From contig CALVTM010000007.1 of NCBI GenBank assembly GCA_944362615.1, positions 1 to 64,000 on the forward strand: a DNA stretch of 64,000 nt. Reading direction: 5' to 3'. Under the pieces are notes generated by a model. The model was not told where the DNA came from. It saw nothing but the letters and a program-made list of their open reading frames with translations, and did no database searches. How positions within the stretch are numbered: the first letter of the stretch is position 1; the number at the start of each line of letters is the position of its first letter. The position numbers and the translations under genes are program-made. The DNA is from an uncultured Clostridia bacterium. GTDB lineage: Bacteria > Bacillota > Clostridia > Christensenellales > Pumilibacteraceae. Positions 40,553-46,263 of the stretch are shown one piece after another.

Positions 40553-41815
40553 TCAAATCTTATCCAGTTCCGCTTTGATCGCGGCGCGGTCGATATTCTG
40601 ACCGATGAAAACGAGCTTGATCATACGGTCACCGTATTCCATATCCCAGTCGTGCGCAAACTTCGGATCGGTCGCAAGAAGTCTGTCTATCTCGCGCGCC
40701 GGAAGCGTCGCATAGAACGGTCCGTTCTCCGTCAGATATTTCTGTCTGCCCGCCTGCTCATATACGTACGACATATCCTTATCGTCCGTGAAATACAGCA
40801 GACCTTTGGAACGAATGATCATTCTGCCATAGTCCTTATTCGCCCAGTCGTCAAATTTCAGCCGGTCAAACGGTCTGCGGCGGTAGTACACATAAGTACC
40901 TATACCGTACTCTTCAGCCGTACCGCTGTCGTCATTCTCGCCCACTCCGTGCTCATGGTGATGATGGTGGTGGTGATGCTCATGATGCTCATGCTCCTCG
41001 CCGTCATCATCGTCGTCATCGTCGTGATGGTGTTCATGATGATGCCCGTGATGATCGTCATCCGCATCATGCTCATTGTCCGGACTGTCAAACTCTTCCA
41101 TCCAGCCGGCGGAGTTTATTGCCTGTTCAAAGTCAAACAGATTGGTATCGAGAATATCCGCTATATCTACTTTGCAGTAGTCCGTTTCTATGATCTCGGC
41201 ATGAGGCTGCAGTTTGCGTATGATAGCTTCGATCGTGCTGAGCTGCTCGGGAGTTACCTCGCTCGCCTTATTCAGAAGCACGATATCGCAGAATTCCAGC
41301 TGCTGTATGACGAGGTTTTCGATATCCTCTTCCCCGCGCTCCGCATGCTCGAGAGCTTCGCCGCAACCGAACTCATCAGCAAGTCGCAAAGCATCGGTAA
41401 CGGATATAACGGCATCCAGTTTGCAGAACTTGGGCATTCCGCGCATCTCGAACTGATCTTCAAGATAAGTTATCGTCTGGGCAATGGGGATAGGCTCGCA
41501 TATTCCGGAAGCCTCGATCAGTATATGATCGAACTTGCGTGTCTTTATGAGCGACGCAAGCTGATCGATCAGGTCTTTTTTAAGCGTGCAACAGATACAG
41601 CCGTTCTGAAGCGCGACAAGATTGTCGTCCTTTTCCGCAACGACTCCGCCTTTCTGTATAAGATCGGCGTCAATGTTCACCTCGCCTATATCGTTGACGA
41701 TGACTGCCATTCTATATCCTTTCGCATTGCGAAGAAGATGGTTGATCAGCGTCGTCTTTCCGCTTCCGAGGTATCCTGTAATAAGTGTAATGGGTACTGT
41801 CTCAAACTTTTTCAT
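40553..41815 (-). CDS. COG0523 (CobW/ZNG1-like) metal-chaperone GTPase with His-rich loop
   Basis: GTP-driven metallochaperone that inserts zinc, cobalt or another metal into client enzymes. It has 420 residues. The G domain has GYLGSGKTTLINH (Walker A near 12-19), the metal motif CICC near 73 and ASGICEP (switch). Residues about 246-285 are almost only His, Asp and Glu (for example HHGHHHEHHHDD, then EHHEHHHHHHHHEHG), a metal store longer than usual. The CobW C-terminal domain (about 305-420) follows. No Zur box or metal regulator is visible. The -10 box ends 6 bp before the ATG, so the mRNA is probably leaderless. The metal is not determinable. Confidence 0.92.
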   Translation of the reverse strand: MKKFETVPITLITGYLGSGKTTLINHLLRNAKGYRMAVIVNDIGEVNIDADLIQKGGVVAEKDDNLVALQNGCICCTLKKDLIDQLASLIKTRKFDHILIEASGICEPIPIAQTITYLEDQFEMRGMPKFCKLDAVISVTDALRLADEFGCGEALEHAERGEEDIENLVIQQLEFCDIVLLNKASEVTPEQLSTIEAIIRKLQPHAEIIETDYCKVDIADILDTNLFDFEQAINSAGWMEEFDSPDNEHDADDDHHGHHHEHHHDDDDDDDGEEHEHHEHHHHHHHHEHGVGENDDSGTAEEYGIGTYVYYRRRPFDRLKFDDWANKDYGRMIIRSKGLLYFTDDKDMSYVYEQAGRQKYLTENGPFYATLPAREIDRLLATDPKFAHDWDMEYGDRMIKLVFIGQNIDRAAIKAELDKI

Positions 41816-41877: not shown

Positions 41878-42783
41878 TCAAAAATCCGCTTCTTTAAGCA
41901 CCTCAAGCAAAGACTGCTTATCTTTACATACCATAGCCGCATTCCGTATGCGTTTTATATCCGGCACTCCTTTAAGATAGAACGGTATGAAAGACCGCAA
42001 CGCCGTTACCGCATACCGCTCCCCGAAATATTCCTCTCCGTACTCGAGATGTTTCAGTATTACTTCATAACGCGTCAGTTTCCGTCCGCCCGAGAAAATC
42101 TGCGGATTTGCAACTGCTCCGCGACCTATCGCTACGCCGTAAACGCCTTGTTTGCGCTGCCCGATATTCGTTTCGTCCACGTCTCCGTTACCCAGCACGG
42201 GTATGCTTACCGCCGATGCAATCTCAAGTATTTTATCCCAGTCCGCTTCGCCGGAGTACAGCTGTTCGCGCGTTCTGCCGTGAACTGTTATCAGATCCGC
42301 GCCCGCATCTTCCATACGCCTGGCGAAATCCACGGCGCCGCATGTGTCCTTGACTCCCAGACGCATTTTTATCGTCACCGGCTTATCGCCTTTTTTAAGA
42401 GCGCGGACTATCGCCGCCGCCCTGTCCGGGTCAAGCATGAGCGCGCTTCCCTCGCCGTGTCCGAACACTTTGCGTACCGGACAGCCCATATTTACGTCGA
42501 GTATATCGAATTTTGCCACTTCCGGATGAGAGAGCGCACGCTCGAACTGTTCGGGAATACTGCCGAAAAGCTGTGCGCAGGACGGAGTTTCATTCGGAGC
42601 AATGCGCAGCAGCGCTACCGTCTTTTTGCTTTTGTAATTGAGCCCCGCAACGCTTACCATCTCGGTCACGGTCAGATCGGCGCCGAAATCCTTGCAAAGC
42701 CGTCTGAACGCCACGTCACTGTAACCGGCAAGCGGCGCAAGCGTTGCGCAGCCCGGGCGGAGCATCTGCTTTATGTCCGCCAT
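41878..42783 (-). CDS. tRNA-dihydrouridine synthase (DusB-like)
   Basis: FMN enzyme that reduces uridine to dihydrouridine in tRNA. It has 301 residues. The TIM barrel starts TLAPLAGYSDVAFRRLC; the catalytic Cys lies in DVNMGCPVRKV, Lys and Arg for FMN in TIKMRLG, and HGRTREQLYSG and LGNGDV follow. IGRGAVANPQIF is the phosphate site. The C-terminal helical domain is short. Its start overlaps the stop of mazG (TAATG), so it is the third gene of a copA-mazG-dus operon. This enzyme often sits beside nifR3-type genes; here it is with a copper pump. Confidence 0.93.
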   Translation of the reverse strand: MADIKQMLRPGCATLAPLAGYSDVAFRRLCKDFGADLTVTEMVSVAGLNYKSKKTVALLRIAPNETPSCAQLFGSIPEQFERALSHPEVAKFDILDVNMGCPVRKVFGHGEGSALMLDPDRAAAIVRALKKGDKPVTIKMRLGVKDTCGAVDFARRMEDAGADLITVHGRTREQLYSGEADWDKILEIASAVSIPVLGNGDVDETNIGQRKQGVYGVAIGRGAVANPQIFSGGRKLTRYEVILKHLEYGEEYFGERYAVTALRSFIPFYLKGVPDIKRIRNAAMVCKDKQSLLEVLKEADF

Positions 42784-43604
42784 TACTTGTCGGACACCTT
42801 TGTTATTTTTCCGTCCATAAAAGCCGCGGACAGCGCGTTGACTTCTTTTATAAGATCCGGTTCAAGATCGGCGCCGCTCTTCAGCGCTCCGCACGCGGAG
42901 ATCAGAAGATCATGTACGGTCGCGGCAGGAACGTCTATTTCCAAGCCCGCTTCACGCAACTTTTTGACCGTCTTCTGAAGTTTGAGCAAAGCCGGAAACG
43001 TATCCGGTATACGCGCAAGCTTGCTTTCCAGCGTTTCCGCATGCTTTTCCTTTGCCTTTGCCGCCTCCCAGCGGTCGAGAGCTTCCGATTCGTTATCCGC
43101 CTTGTCCTCGCCGAAAATATGCGTGTGACGGGTCACCAGCTTACGCACCAGCTCGTCCACCACGTCCAGCCGCGTGAATTCGCCTGCGCGCTCCGCCATA
43201 TCACAATGGAAAAGCGCCTGAAGAAGTATATCACCGGTTTCCTCACGCATTCCGTCAAGGTCGCCTGCGTCTATGGCTTCACAAAGCTCGTACGCTTCCT
43301 CTATCGCGTTCTTGCGTATGCTTTCATGCGTCTGCGCTCTGTCCCAGGGGCAGCCGCCTTCGCCGGTAAGTCTGCGCATGACGTGTATCAGGTCGCCGTC
43401 AGAGTACCTCGGCTTGAACAGACTGTCGTTCCCTTCGGCGTATGCTTCGCCGCCGGTCACCGCAACTTTACAGCCGTACAGCTTTTCAATGTAAGCCTCT
43501 ACCCTCTCCGGATCGGTTATATCGATCACGCGGAGATCGTATCTCGTATCTATCAGCGCATCATAAAGATCCGCCTCAGTTATCGTAAAAACGCTTCTGC
43601 TCAT
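42783..43604 (-). CDS. mazG: MazG-family nucleoside triphosphate pyrophosphohydrolase
   Basis: Hydrolyses NTPs to NMP and pyrophosphate, cleaning the nucleotide pool. It has 273 residues. The MazG core (about 68-165) has GGCPWDRAQTHESI, the metal motif EEAYELCEAI and EETGDILLQALFH. The first 65 residues match the end of a tetrapyrrole-methylase-linked MazG (YabN) leader region without the methylase itself. The second MazG domain after 180 is degenerate (KLARIPDTFPALLKLQK, then helices). It starts in an ATGA overlap with copA, so translation is coupled. Confidence 0.92.
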   Translation of the reverse strand: MSRSVFTITEADLYDALIDTRYDLRVIDITDPERVEAYIEKLYGCKVAVTGGEAYAEGNDSLFKPRYSDGDLIHVMRRLTGEGGCPWDRAQTHESIRKNAIEEAYELCEAIDAGDLDGMREETGDILLQALFHCDMAERAGEFTRLDVVDELVRKLVTRHTHIFGEDKADNESEALDRWEAAKAKEKHAETLESKLARIPDTFPALLKLQKTVKKLREAGLEIDVPAATVHDLLISACGALKSGADLEPDLIKEVNALSAAFMDGKITKVSDK

Positions 43605-43789
43605 TTGCTTACCTTATATCCCTCTTTCTCTATTGCCGCTATTATAGCTTCGTCGCTTACATCGCCCTCTACAGTAGCCGTACCGGCTTCAAGGCTGACT
43701 TCAACCTTAAGTCCCAGCTCCTCAAGCGCTTTCTTTACTCTGCCCGTGCAATGACTGCACATCATACCTTCTACCTTAAATATTCTCAT
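43601..43789 (-). CDS. Possible internally started CopZ-like copper chaperone
   Basis: Within copA and in its frame, an ATG at 43789 is preceded by AAAAAGGAG at 7 nt, as good a ribosome site as any in the window. From it runs a 62-residue HMA domain (MRIFKVEGMMCSHCTGRVKK..) that equals a complete CopZ protein in length and motif. It may be made as a free chaperone in addition to the fused form, or mark a recent fusion of copA and copZ by loss of the copA stop. The site is seen; the second product is inference. Confidence 0.55.
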   Translation of the reverse strand: MRIFKVEGMMCSHCTGRVKKALEELGLKVEVSLEAGTATVEGDVSDEAIIAAIEKEGYKVSK

Positions 43790-46135
43790 ATCCGTCTCCT
43801 TTTTCGCTGCGGAAAGCGAATTGTTTTCCTTTTTTACGGCGCATGCGCCGTTCGCGGAGCACTCAGCCGGCGCGTCAATGACCGCGCTCCTGCCCGCCGT
43901 CTGCTTCTTCAGCCCTATATTAAGTCTTAAAGAGTTCAGCACCACGCATACACTGGAAATGCTCATCGCCGCAGAACCTATCATCGGGGTTATCGTGAAC
44001 CCGAGCGCCGCAAATGCACCGCCGGCTATCGGCATACATATCAGATTGTATATGAACGCCCAGAACAGATTTTCCTTTATTATGCGCATCGCTCTTCGCG
44101 ACAGCATTATTCCGAAAGCCACCTTTTCCACTCTGCCGCTTGTGAGCACGAAATCGGCGGAATTCATAGCTATATCCGTGCCGCTGCCCATTGCGAACCC
44201 GACATCGCTGACCGCAAGAGCCGGCGCATCGTTGATGCCGTCCCCGACAAAAGCGACGTACTCCCCGCGAGCTTTGAGCTCTTTAATGTACTCCGCTTTA
44301 TCCTCCGGCTTAAGCGAATGCCGCACTTCGTCTATGCCGAGTACGGACCGAACGTGATTCGCCGCCCCCTCGCCGTCTCCCGTCAGCATGACCGTGCGTA
44401 TACCGAGTTTTTTCAACTCGTCCACCGCCTCTTTTGCGCCTTTGCGCGCGCCGTCGGATACGCCAAACACAAGGACCGCCTGTCCGCCGGTCACCGCCAC
44501 TATCGCACTGCCGCCCGCACTGCGTATCTCCGCTATTTCACGCGCAAACCTTGTCAGGTCCGCGCCATGCGTCTCCGCCATGGCAACGCTGCCTATAATA
44601 TACTTTCTGCCGCATGCGCTGCCGGATATACCGCCGTAAAACTGGGCAAAGTCCGCCGCCTCCTCGCTCCCCGCGTCCGCACCGTATTCGGCTATCGCCG
44701 CGCTTATAGGGTGAGAACTGAGCTTCTCCACTGCGACTACCGCCGGAAGATGATCCATATTGCCGTAAGCAGATGTTACTTTCGGCTTACCCTCGGTCAC
44801 GGTTCCCGTCTTATCGAAAGCGACTACCGTTATGCGTCCGGCATTTTCCAGCGCCGCTGCGCTTCTTATGAGTATGCCCTCGCGCGCCGCCCTGCCTACA
44901 CCCACCGTTACGGCTACAGGCGTTGCAAGTCCGAGCGCACACGGACATGATATCACAAGCACGCTCGCCGCGAATATCACGGAATGCGCAACGTCCGGCG
45001 ATCCCGACGCCACTCCGGTGACTATCATCCAGATAATGAACACCACGGCGGCAACGCCTATTACAAACGGTACGAATATACCGCTTATTCTGTCCGCCAG
45101 TCTGCCTACGGGAGCTTTGTCCGCCGACGCCTTTTCCACCGCGTCTATAATGCGTGAAAGCGTGGTGTCCTCTCCTATCTTCTCCGCTTTTACAGTGATA
45201 TACCCGCTTTCCAGAGTACATGCGCCTACGACTTTATCCCCGATCCGAACATCGCGCGGTATGCTTTCACCCGTGATCGCCGCCTCACCGACAGCTCCTT
45301 CACCCGAGACAATCTCTCCGTCCGTCGGAATGCTTTCTCCAGCTTTGACCGCGAAAATATCACCGACCGCCAATAACGCTATCGGGATCAGCTCCTCTTT
45401 ACCGTCTCTTATTACGCGCGCCTTATCCGGACGCAGGGATATGAGTCCGTCTATTGCGGACGTCGTCCGGGTCTTGGATAATGCCTCAAGGAATTTACCG
45501 ATCGTCACAAGCGTAAGCACCATTGCAGCCGAGTCGAAATACAGATATGAACGCGCCGCGCTTACCGCTTCGTGCAGAGCTCCGTCCGTCAGACTTCCGT
45601 CTACGCCGAAAAGAAGAACTATACCGTATACACCTACGCCGAACGATGCCAGACTGCCCAACGACACGAGCGTGTCCATATTGAACGACATGTGACGCAG
45701 ACCTTTTGCCGCGCTAATGAAAAATTTACGGTTCACGACCATTATCACTATCGTAAGCGCCGCCTGTATGAAAGCTCCGGCTATTGCTCCGGCTTTCCCC
45801 GGAAATTCAGGCAGCCCTATCATGTGCCCCATCGCAAAATACATAAGCGGCACAAGCAGCGCTATCGATATCATCAGTCTGCGGAAAGTACGCTTCGCTT
45901 CCTTTGCATGCACTTCGCCTATCTTCTTCTGCTCCGTGCGCTCAAGCGCTCCGTATCCTATGTCCGTTACCGCTCTGATAATATCAGATGCCGGTACGTC
46001 GCCCTCTACGGTTAGCGTCGCGGATATCAGATTAACGGATGCGGATTTTACACCCGCAACTCCCCTTGCCGCTCGCTCTACCGCCGCACTGCACGCGGCA
46101 CAGCTCATTCCGGTTATATCGTATACTTTACTCAA
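43601..46135 (-). CDS. copA: Copper-translocating P1B ATPase with C-terminal CopZ-like domain
   Basis: Pumps Cu(I) out of the cell. It has 844 residues from a TTG with GGAGA 8 bp upstream. An N-terminal metal domain has GMSCAACSAAVE (about 9-20). Eight helices follow, with CPC in ISCPCALGLATP, the phosphorylated Asp in DKTGTVTEGK, and GDGINDAPAL in the ATP domain. After a Cys-containing linker (PAECSANGACAVKK), residues 783-844 form a second metal domain with GMMCSHC. That last part has its own ribosome site and ATG (see next entry). A C-terminal placing is unusual; CopA normally carries such domains at the N-terminus. First gene of a copper-mazG-dus operon. Confidence 0.95.
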   Translation of the reverse strand: MSKVYDITGMSCAACSAAVERAARGVAGVKSASVNLISATLTVEGDVPASDIIRAVTDIGYGALERTEQKKIGEVHAKEAKRTFRRLMISIALLVPLMYFAMGHMIGLPEFPGKAGAIAGAFIQAALTIVIMVVNRKFFISAAKGLRHMSFNMDTLVSLGSLASFGVGVYGIVLLFGVDGSLTDGALHEAVSAARSYLYFDSAAMVLTLVTIGKFLEALSKTRTTSAIDGLISLRPDKARVIRDGKEELIPIALLAVGDIFAVKAGESIPTDGEIVSGEGAVGEAAITGESIPRDVRIGDKVVGACTLESGYITVKAEKIGEDTTLSRIIDAVEKASADKAPVGRLADRISGIFVPFVIGVAAVVFIIWMIVTGVASGSPDVAHSVIFAASVLVISCPCALGLATPVAVTVGVGRAAREGILIRSAAALENAGRITVVAFDKTGTVTEGKPKVTSAYGNMDHLPAVVAVEKLSSHPISAAIAEYGADAGSEEAADFAQFYGGISGSACGRKYIIGSVAMAETHGADLTRFAREIAEIRSAGGSAIVAVTGGQAVLVFGVSDGARKGAKEAVDELKKLGIRTVMLTGDGEGAANHVRSVLGIDEVRHSLKPEDKAEYIKELKARGEYVAFVGDGINDAPALAVSDVGFAMGSGTDIAMNSADFVLTSGRVEKVAFGIMLSRRAMRIIKENLFWAFIYNLICMPIAGGAFAALGFTITPMIGSAAMSISSVCVVLNSLRLNIGLKKQTAGRSAVIDAPAECSANGACAVKKENNSLSAAKKETDMRIFKVEGMMCSHCTGRVKKALEELGLKVEVSLEAGTATVEGDVSDEAIIAAIEKEGYKVSK

Positions 46136-46159
46136 TTAAATATCTCCGTATTTACGTAG

Positions 46160-46186
46160 TTAAATAGTTTAACCATGGTTATTTAA
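46160..46186. promoter_or_regulatory. Palindromic site upstream of copA
   Basis: A perfect 12-bp palindrome TAACCATGGTTA lies within overlapping arms TTAAATA (46160-46166) and TATTTAA (46180-46186), 25-50 bp before the copA start. This suits an operator. It is not a CopY box (TACAnnTGTA) and is not clearly a CsoR site, so the regulator is unknown. Confidence 0.5.
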
Positions 46187-46263
46187 TACTTACACCGCAA
46201 GGATACCACCATTTATGGCTTTTGTCAAGAATTTTACCGCCGCGCCGGATGTATTGACAAACG

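Follow-up and report, generated by a model that had tools for sequence, protein, structure and literature searches.

An in-frame ribosome site at the 3' end of a clostridial copA gene predicted to yield a free CopZ-type copper chaperone beside the pump

Overview

The copA gene of an uncultured Clostridia bacterium of the family Pumilibacteraceae, located in a 64,000-nucleotide stretch of contig CALVTM010000007.1 (hereafter the window), is very probably a maintained dual-product gene that encodes a pump–chaperone fusion and, by internal initiation, a free CopZ. Ribosomes starting at the TTG codon would produce the entire pump, including the tethered metal-binding domain at its C-terminus, and other ribosomes would bind an internal AAGGAG in the linker-coding mRNA and initiate at the ATG at 43789, so that this domain is also made on its own, as a Cu(I) chaperone of the CopZ type with 62 residues. 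The free chaperone may deliver Cu(I) from the cytosol to the pump and perhaps also to a copper-sensing regulator. We infer initiation at the internal ATG, accumulation of the free product and its chaperone function from sequence comparisons.

The copA gene and its nested frame

The predicted transporter encoded by copA is a Cu(I) P1B-type ATPase, with E1-E2 ATPase and HAD hydrolase domains assigned by Pfam, an N-terminal HMA domain (GMSCAAC), and a CPC transport motif (SCPCALGLATP) (Table 1). On paper, the internal start is at least as good as the primary one, since the latter uses a TTG codon spaced 8 nt from its GGAG. A palindrome, AACCATGGTT, lies at 46171–46180 on the minus strand, downstream of the promoter-like site and before the copA start, and is a possible operator. 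Downstream, the MazG-like gene overlaps the copA stop and is also the next gene after copA in most genomes of the genus; the overlap and the recurrent neighborhood suggest translational coupling. Two genes downstream of mazG lies a CobW-type GTPase gene (40553–41815, minus strand), whose product has a long His/Asp-rich insert and is likely a metal-handling protein.

Table 1. Features of the copA region of the window.
Feature	Position	Strand	Remarks
Promoter-like TTGACA-17-TATCCT upstream of copA	46200..46228	-	Consensus match only
Putative ribosome site GGAG of the primary TTG start	46144..46147	-	8 nt spacing, read from the sequence
copA	43601..46135	-	TTG start at 46135, TGA at 43603–43601; 844 aa; Cu(I) P1B-type ATPase with an HMA domain at the N- and C-terminus; Pfam E1-E2_ATPase, Hydrolase, two HMA stretches
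Linker-coding stretch, last membrane helix (NSLRL) to C-terminal HMA	43790..43915	-	Fast-evolving, Cys-containing
Internal Shine-Dalgarno (SD) sequence AAAAAGGAG	43796..43804	-	Followed by ACGGAT, i.e., 6 nt to the ATG
Internal ATG, in frame with copA	43787..43789	-	Candidate start of free CopZ, read from the sequence
Nested copZ-like frame	43601..43789	-	62 codons and stop (MRIFKVEGMMCSHC...GYKVSK); complete HMA with CxxC (GMMCSHC)
MazG-like gene (mazG)	42783..43604	-	Begins at 43604, overlapping the copA stop as ATGA

The original prediction described a complete 62-residue metal-binding domain at the C-terminus, preceded by an in-frame ATG and an SD sequence of its own, and the sequence confirms this description. 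Pfam HMA (PF00403) covers residues 4–59 of the nested frame (E 2.9e-17), and the B. subtilis CopZ structure 2qif aligns to residues 3–62 (E 2.4e-6); the matches of the C-terminal domain include the CopZ structures 2qif, 1k0v, 6ff2, and 1cpz, as well as PDB 3fry. As a single HMA of 62 aa with GMMCSHC, the domain has the size and motif of CopZ/Atx1-type proteins (approximately 60–75 aa, GMxCxxC). The genome (1.6 Mb, 25 contigs) encodes two further single-HMA proteins, one with a GMRCGMC-type and one with an LDCAHC-type motif, and neither is a clear CopZ.

The linker often contains paired cysteines, ECSANGAC in the window and ACPVGAAC, CTLDKC, CSGC, or ECGDKC in relatives (L006–L017, L036, L042), which perhaps form an extra metal site. 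A separate copZ promoter was rejected, because the sole minus-strand match near the site starts at the internal ATG itself and would lie downstream of the SD. The mRNA fold around the site in the window is no less stable than those of shuffled sequences, which counts against the proposal.

Conservation of the internal site

A total of 229 non-identical fused copA genes were pooled from samples of the order, of named GTDB genomes, and of the phylum, most of the genomes being metagenome assemblies. The site was defined as an in-frame start codon where the HMA begins, preceded at 3–11 nt by GGAG, AGGA, or GAGG. ATG with SD was present in 198 genes and GTG or TTG with SD in three, and ten had the ATG only and 18 (~8%) no start. 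Besides Bacillota, including Pseudoflavonifractor, Lachnoclostridium, Parablautia, Selenomonas, and Aedoeadaptatus, the records cover Treponema, Elusimicrobia (Elusimicrobium), and Gastranaerophilales. Tandem N-terminal HMAs, which were sought as a control, did not occur in the collected set of fused copA genes.

In the order sample, the SD was found in 107 of the 113 ATG-bearing fused genes, compared with 48.3 expected when the encoded amino acids are recoded synonymously; among the remaining in-frame ATGs of these genes, only 121 of 2020 (6.0%) had an SD 4-mer 3–11 nt upstream. The median duplex energy was −8.7 kcal/mol at the site and −2.4 kcal/mol at the other in-frame ATGs. The independent sample of named genomes gave a similar picture, with the site in 65 of 74 genes and an SD before 94 of 1509 control ATGs. 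A difference in mRNA accessibility from other ATGs was discounted as evidence, being confounded by the A-rich linkers. A start codon and a ribosome site are therefore present at the domain boundary and conserved beyond amino-acid need, as expected for internal initiation.

Separate copZ genes and the role of the free domain

Among 38 genomes with the site, 2 had separate CopZ-like genes, compared with 7 of the 14 genomes in which it was absent or only weak (p = 7e-4, uncorrected for kinship; p-values here are inflated by the relatedness of the sequences). This count was made by motif, taking GMxCxxC as CopZ-like and excluding proteins of the GMxCGMC and LDCAxC types; when two DLCC types are counted as CopZ, the first figure becomes 4 of 38 (p = 0.005). 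No free CopZ-like gene was found in the other seven of the 14 genomes with a weak site or no start, indicating that the free form is not indispensable.

Two further observations concern small HMA genes. Two fused copA genes without the internal start, L143 and L147 (G151 and G132, one genus), have a separate 73-aa HMA gene (GMRCGGC) directly downstream. A recurrent free HMA family with the motif GMxCGMCExHV and a conserved C-terminal YEKxGL tail (L003 at 1438–1692 on the minus strand, L309–L312, L315–L319, L341, L343, L346) is apparently distinct from CopZ.

Internal initiation might be real and its product still not a chaperone, with the free domain acting as a pump-bound regulatory subunit or a copper buffer. 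The same domain is already tethered to the pump, so that delivery might need no free copy, and in the case of Cas11, a proven analogue, the short product joins the complex of the long one as a subunit (PMC11899642). However, the domain matches known CopZ chaperones in sequence, and genomes with the site less often have a separate CopZ-like gene, which makes this role rather unlikely. The CopZ-type chaperone remains the preferred identity of the free product.

Origin of the fusion and persistence of the SD

The survey for split relatives proposed with the original prediction found pairs with the same SD. In the split copA-copZ pairs L075, L077, and L081, copA ends with ...KGE-stop and the SD of copZ (aaaggag) lies within that end; the fused gene L105 is laid out alike, except that sense codons take the place of the stop. 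These arrangements suggest that the fusion arose by stop loss with retention of the copZ start. On a 203-row tree, the fused or split state needs three changes and the presence of the site approximately 12–16, although split genes are under-sampled in this tree because the query was the fused tail. With three such changes and the fusion present in many families, the fusion looks old and the SD appears to have been kept since, and the alternative offered in the original prediction, that the SD merely marks a recent copA-copZ fusion, was not borne out.

The genus sample comprised 14 genomes, all with a copA match and 13 with a complete fusion, and both SD and ATG were kept in all 13 fused genes. 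Mean pairwise amino acid identity among these genes was as low as 26% in the linker, compared with 77% over the 95 residues that precede it and 69% over the HMA. In the linker alignment, the information content at the GGAG positions was 1.2–2.0 bits, whereas most other linker positions were well under 1 bit. The residue preceding the Glu (GAG) codon varies among K, E, Q, T, and M, and its codon always ends in G. A conserved linker with unconserved SD bases had been named as the pattern contrary to the proposal; the opposite is seen, as the linker diverges and the SD and ATG stay. In the 14th genome (G004, locus L018), the SD and ATG are present and the frame is interrupted by a TAA six codons later (MKTVKI*GMMCMHC), which would leave both the fusion and the free domain incomplete; this gene may be a pseudogene, an assembly error, or something else.

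The site could also be a fossil of the fusion, the old copZ ribosome site persisting as a relic without present function after the stop codon was lost. The split, overlapping relatives and L105 make a stop-loss fusion plausible, and the site has been lost in some lineages. Nevertheless, a relic would be expected to decay, and in this genus the SD stays in a linker that has drifted to 26% identity. The placement of the SD and the synonymous codon choice, described below, also deviate strongly from the remaining linker, and the apparent age of the fusion further argues against a relic, which we consider quite improbable. A ribosome site maintained for present use accounts better for these patterns.

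Selection on nucleotides

SD 4-mers occupied 432 of 1408 positions at 4–11 nt before the start (31%), compared with 0.2–1.8% elsewhere in the same linkers. Codon choice was shifted at the SD, with GAG used for Glu in a ratio of 121:81 against 139:283 in the rest of the linker, and AAG used for Lys in a ratio of 99:61 against 237:449. The motif was found in differing codon phases across the fused genes, which indicates conservation of the nucleotides rather than of the amino acids. A strong SD was present in 150 of the 182 genes with the ATG but in 4 of the 17 without it. Matched independent pairs on the tree, comparing start and SD, ran in the expected direction (4.4 vs 0.7 of 10) and were too few to reach significance.

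An SD-like sequence within a gene might instead slow elongation, so that the last membrane helix is inserted before the soluble domain is made and no initiation takes place. The median distance between the membrane domain and the ATG is 38 codons, which is about the length of nascent chain held in the ribosome exit tunnel. This distance, however, ranges from 16 to 120 codons, whereas the spacing between SD and ATG is tight, mostly 6–11 nt. Moreover, most genes that lack the ATG have no SD either, and the three genes with GTG or TTG in place of ATG retain the SD. Translational pausing is therefore a very improbable explanation, and initiation at the adjacent start codon is favored. Chance or composition, by which A-rich linkers with many Lys and Glu residues would place GGAG near a Met accidentally, can practically be dismissed, as synonymous recoding alone yields 48 of 113 against the 107 observed, the motif is confined to the correct spacing, and the control ATGs reach only 6%.

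Comparison with known systems

Ordinary copA-copZ operons with a separate CopZ, of the B. subtilis and E. hirae type, contain the same two protein modules with copZ after copA, as do the split relatives described above. In these operons, the two genes form separate frames with a stop between them, whereas the arrangement in the window is one continuous frame from which the fusion is always made too. CopA of Archaeoglobus fulgidus has metal-binding domains at both the N- and C-terminus and thus resembles the present protein in its tethered C-terminal domain; to our knowledge, internal initiation is not known for CopA of this type.

In E. coli copA(Z), programmed −1 frameshifting on copA gives a chaperone (Meydan 2017; Drees 2017; as described in PMC7558416, PMC5009743, and PMC9470648), and PMC5009743 describes a 70-aa product in which the N-terminal HMA is freed by the frameshift and an early stop. 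As in E. coli, one copA gene would give a pump and a small HMA chaperone, the choice being made at translation. In contrast to the E. coli mechanism, with its slippery sequence and stimulatory structure, the domain concerned here is the C-terminal HMA, with a second in-frame start and no need for a frameshift site. The conservation of SD and ATG supports, as the best explanation, the original prediction of a pump and a free chaperone made from one gene by a route different from frameshifting.

The mechanistically closest proven case found is Cas11, which is made from an internal in-frame start in cas10d and cas8 genes (McBride 2020, as cited in PMC11899642). In both systems, initiation at an in-frame start within a long gene gives, or would give, a small separate protein that corresponds to the C-terminal region of the large one. 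However, the proteins and their functions are unrelated, and Cas11 joins the same complex, whereas the free copper domain should act as a soluble carrier.

Implications for copper homeostasis in Bacillota

No report of internal initiation for CopZ was found in the open-access literature. It seems probable that a large part of the Bacillota, together with some Treponema, Elusimicrobia, and Gastranaerophilales, share a previously unrecognized arrangement in which copZ, instead of being a separate gene, forms the in-frame end of copA and has a ribosome site of its own. A pair of tethered and free chaperones would then come from one gene, a solution convergent with the frameshifting of E. coli. 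Cultured species suited to testing this arrangement include Parablautia intestinalis (L298), Pseudoflavonifractor capillosus (L229), and Lachnoclostridium sp. An196 (L233), and the roughly one dozen natural losses of the site may provide a natural system for studying how initiation is tuned inside a translated frame.

If the proposal is true, the production of a copper pump and its chaperone from one gene has arisen at least twice in evolution, through translational mechanisms that are unrelated. Annotation that assigns one protein to each frame would be expected to overlook such chaperones, and the nested copZ is a possible reason why many of the sampled gut bacteria seem to have no copper chaperone gene.
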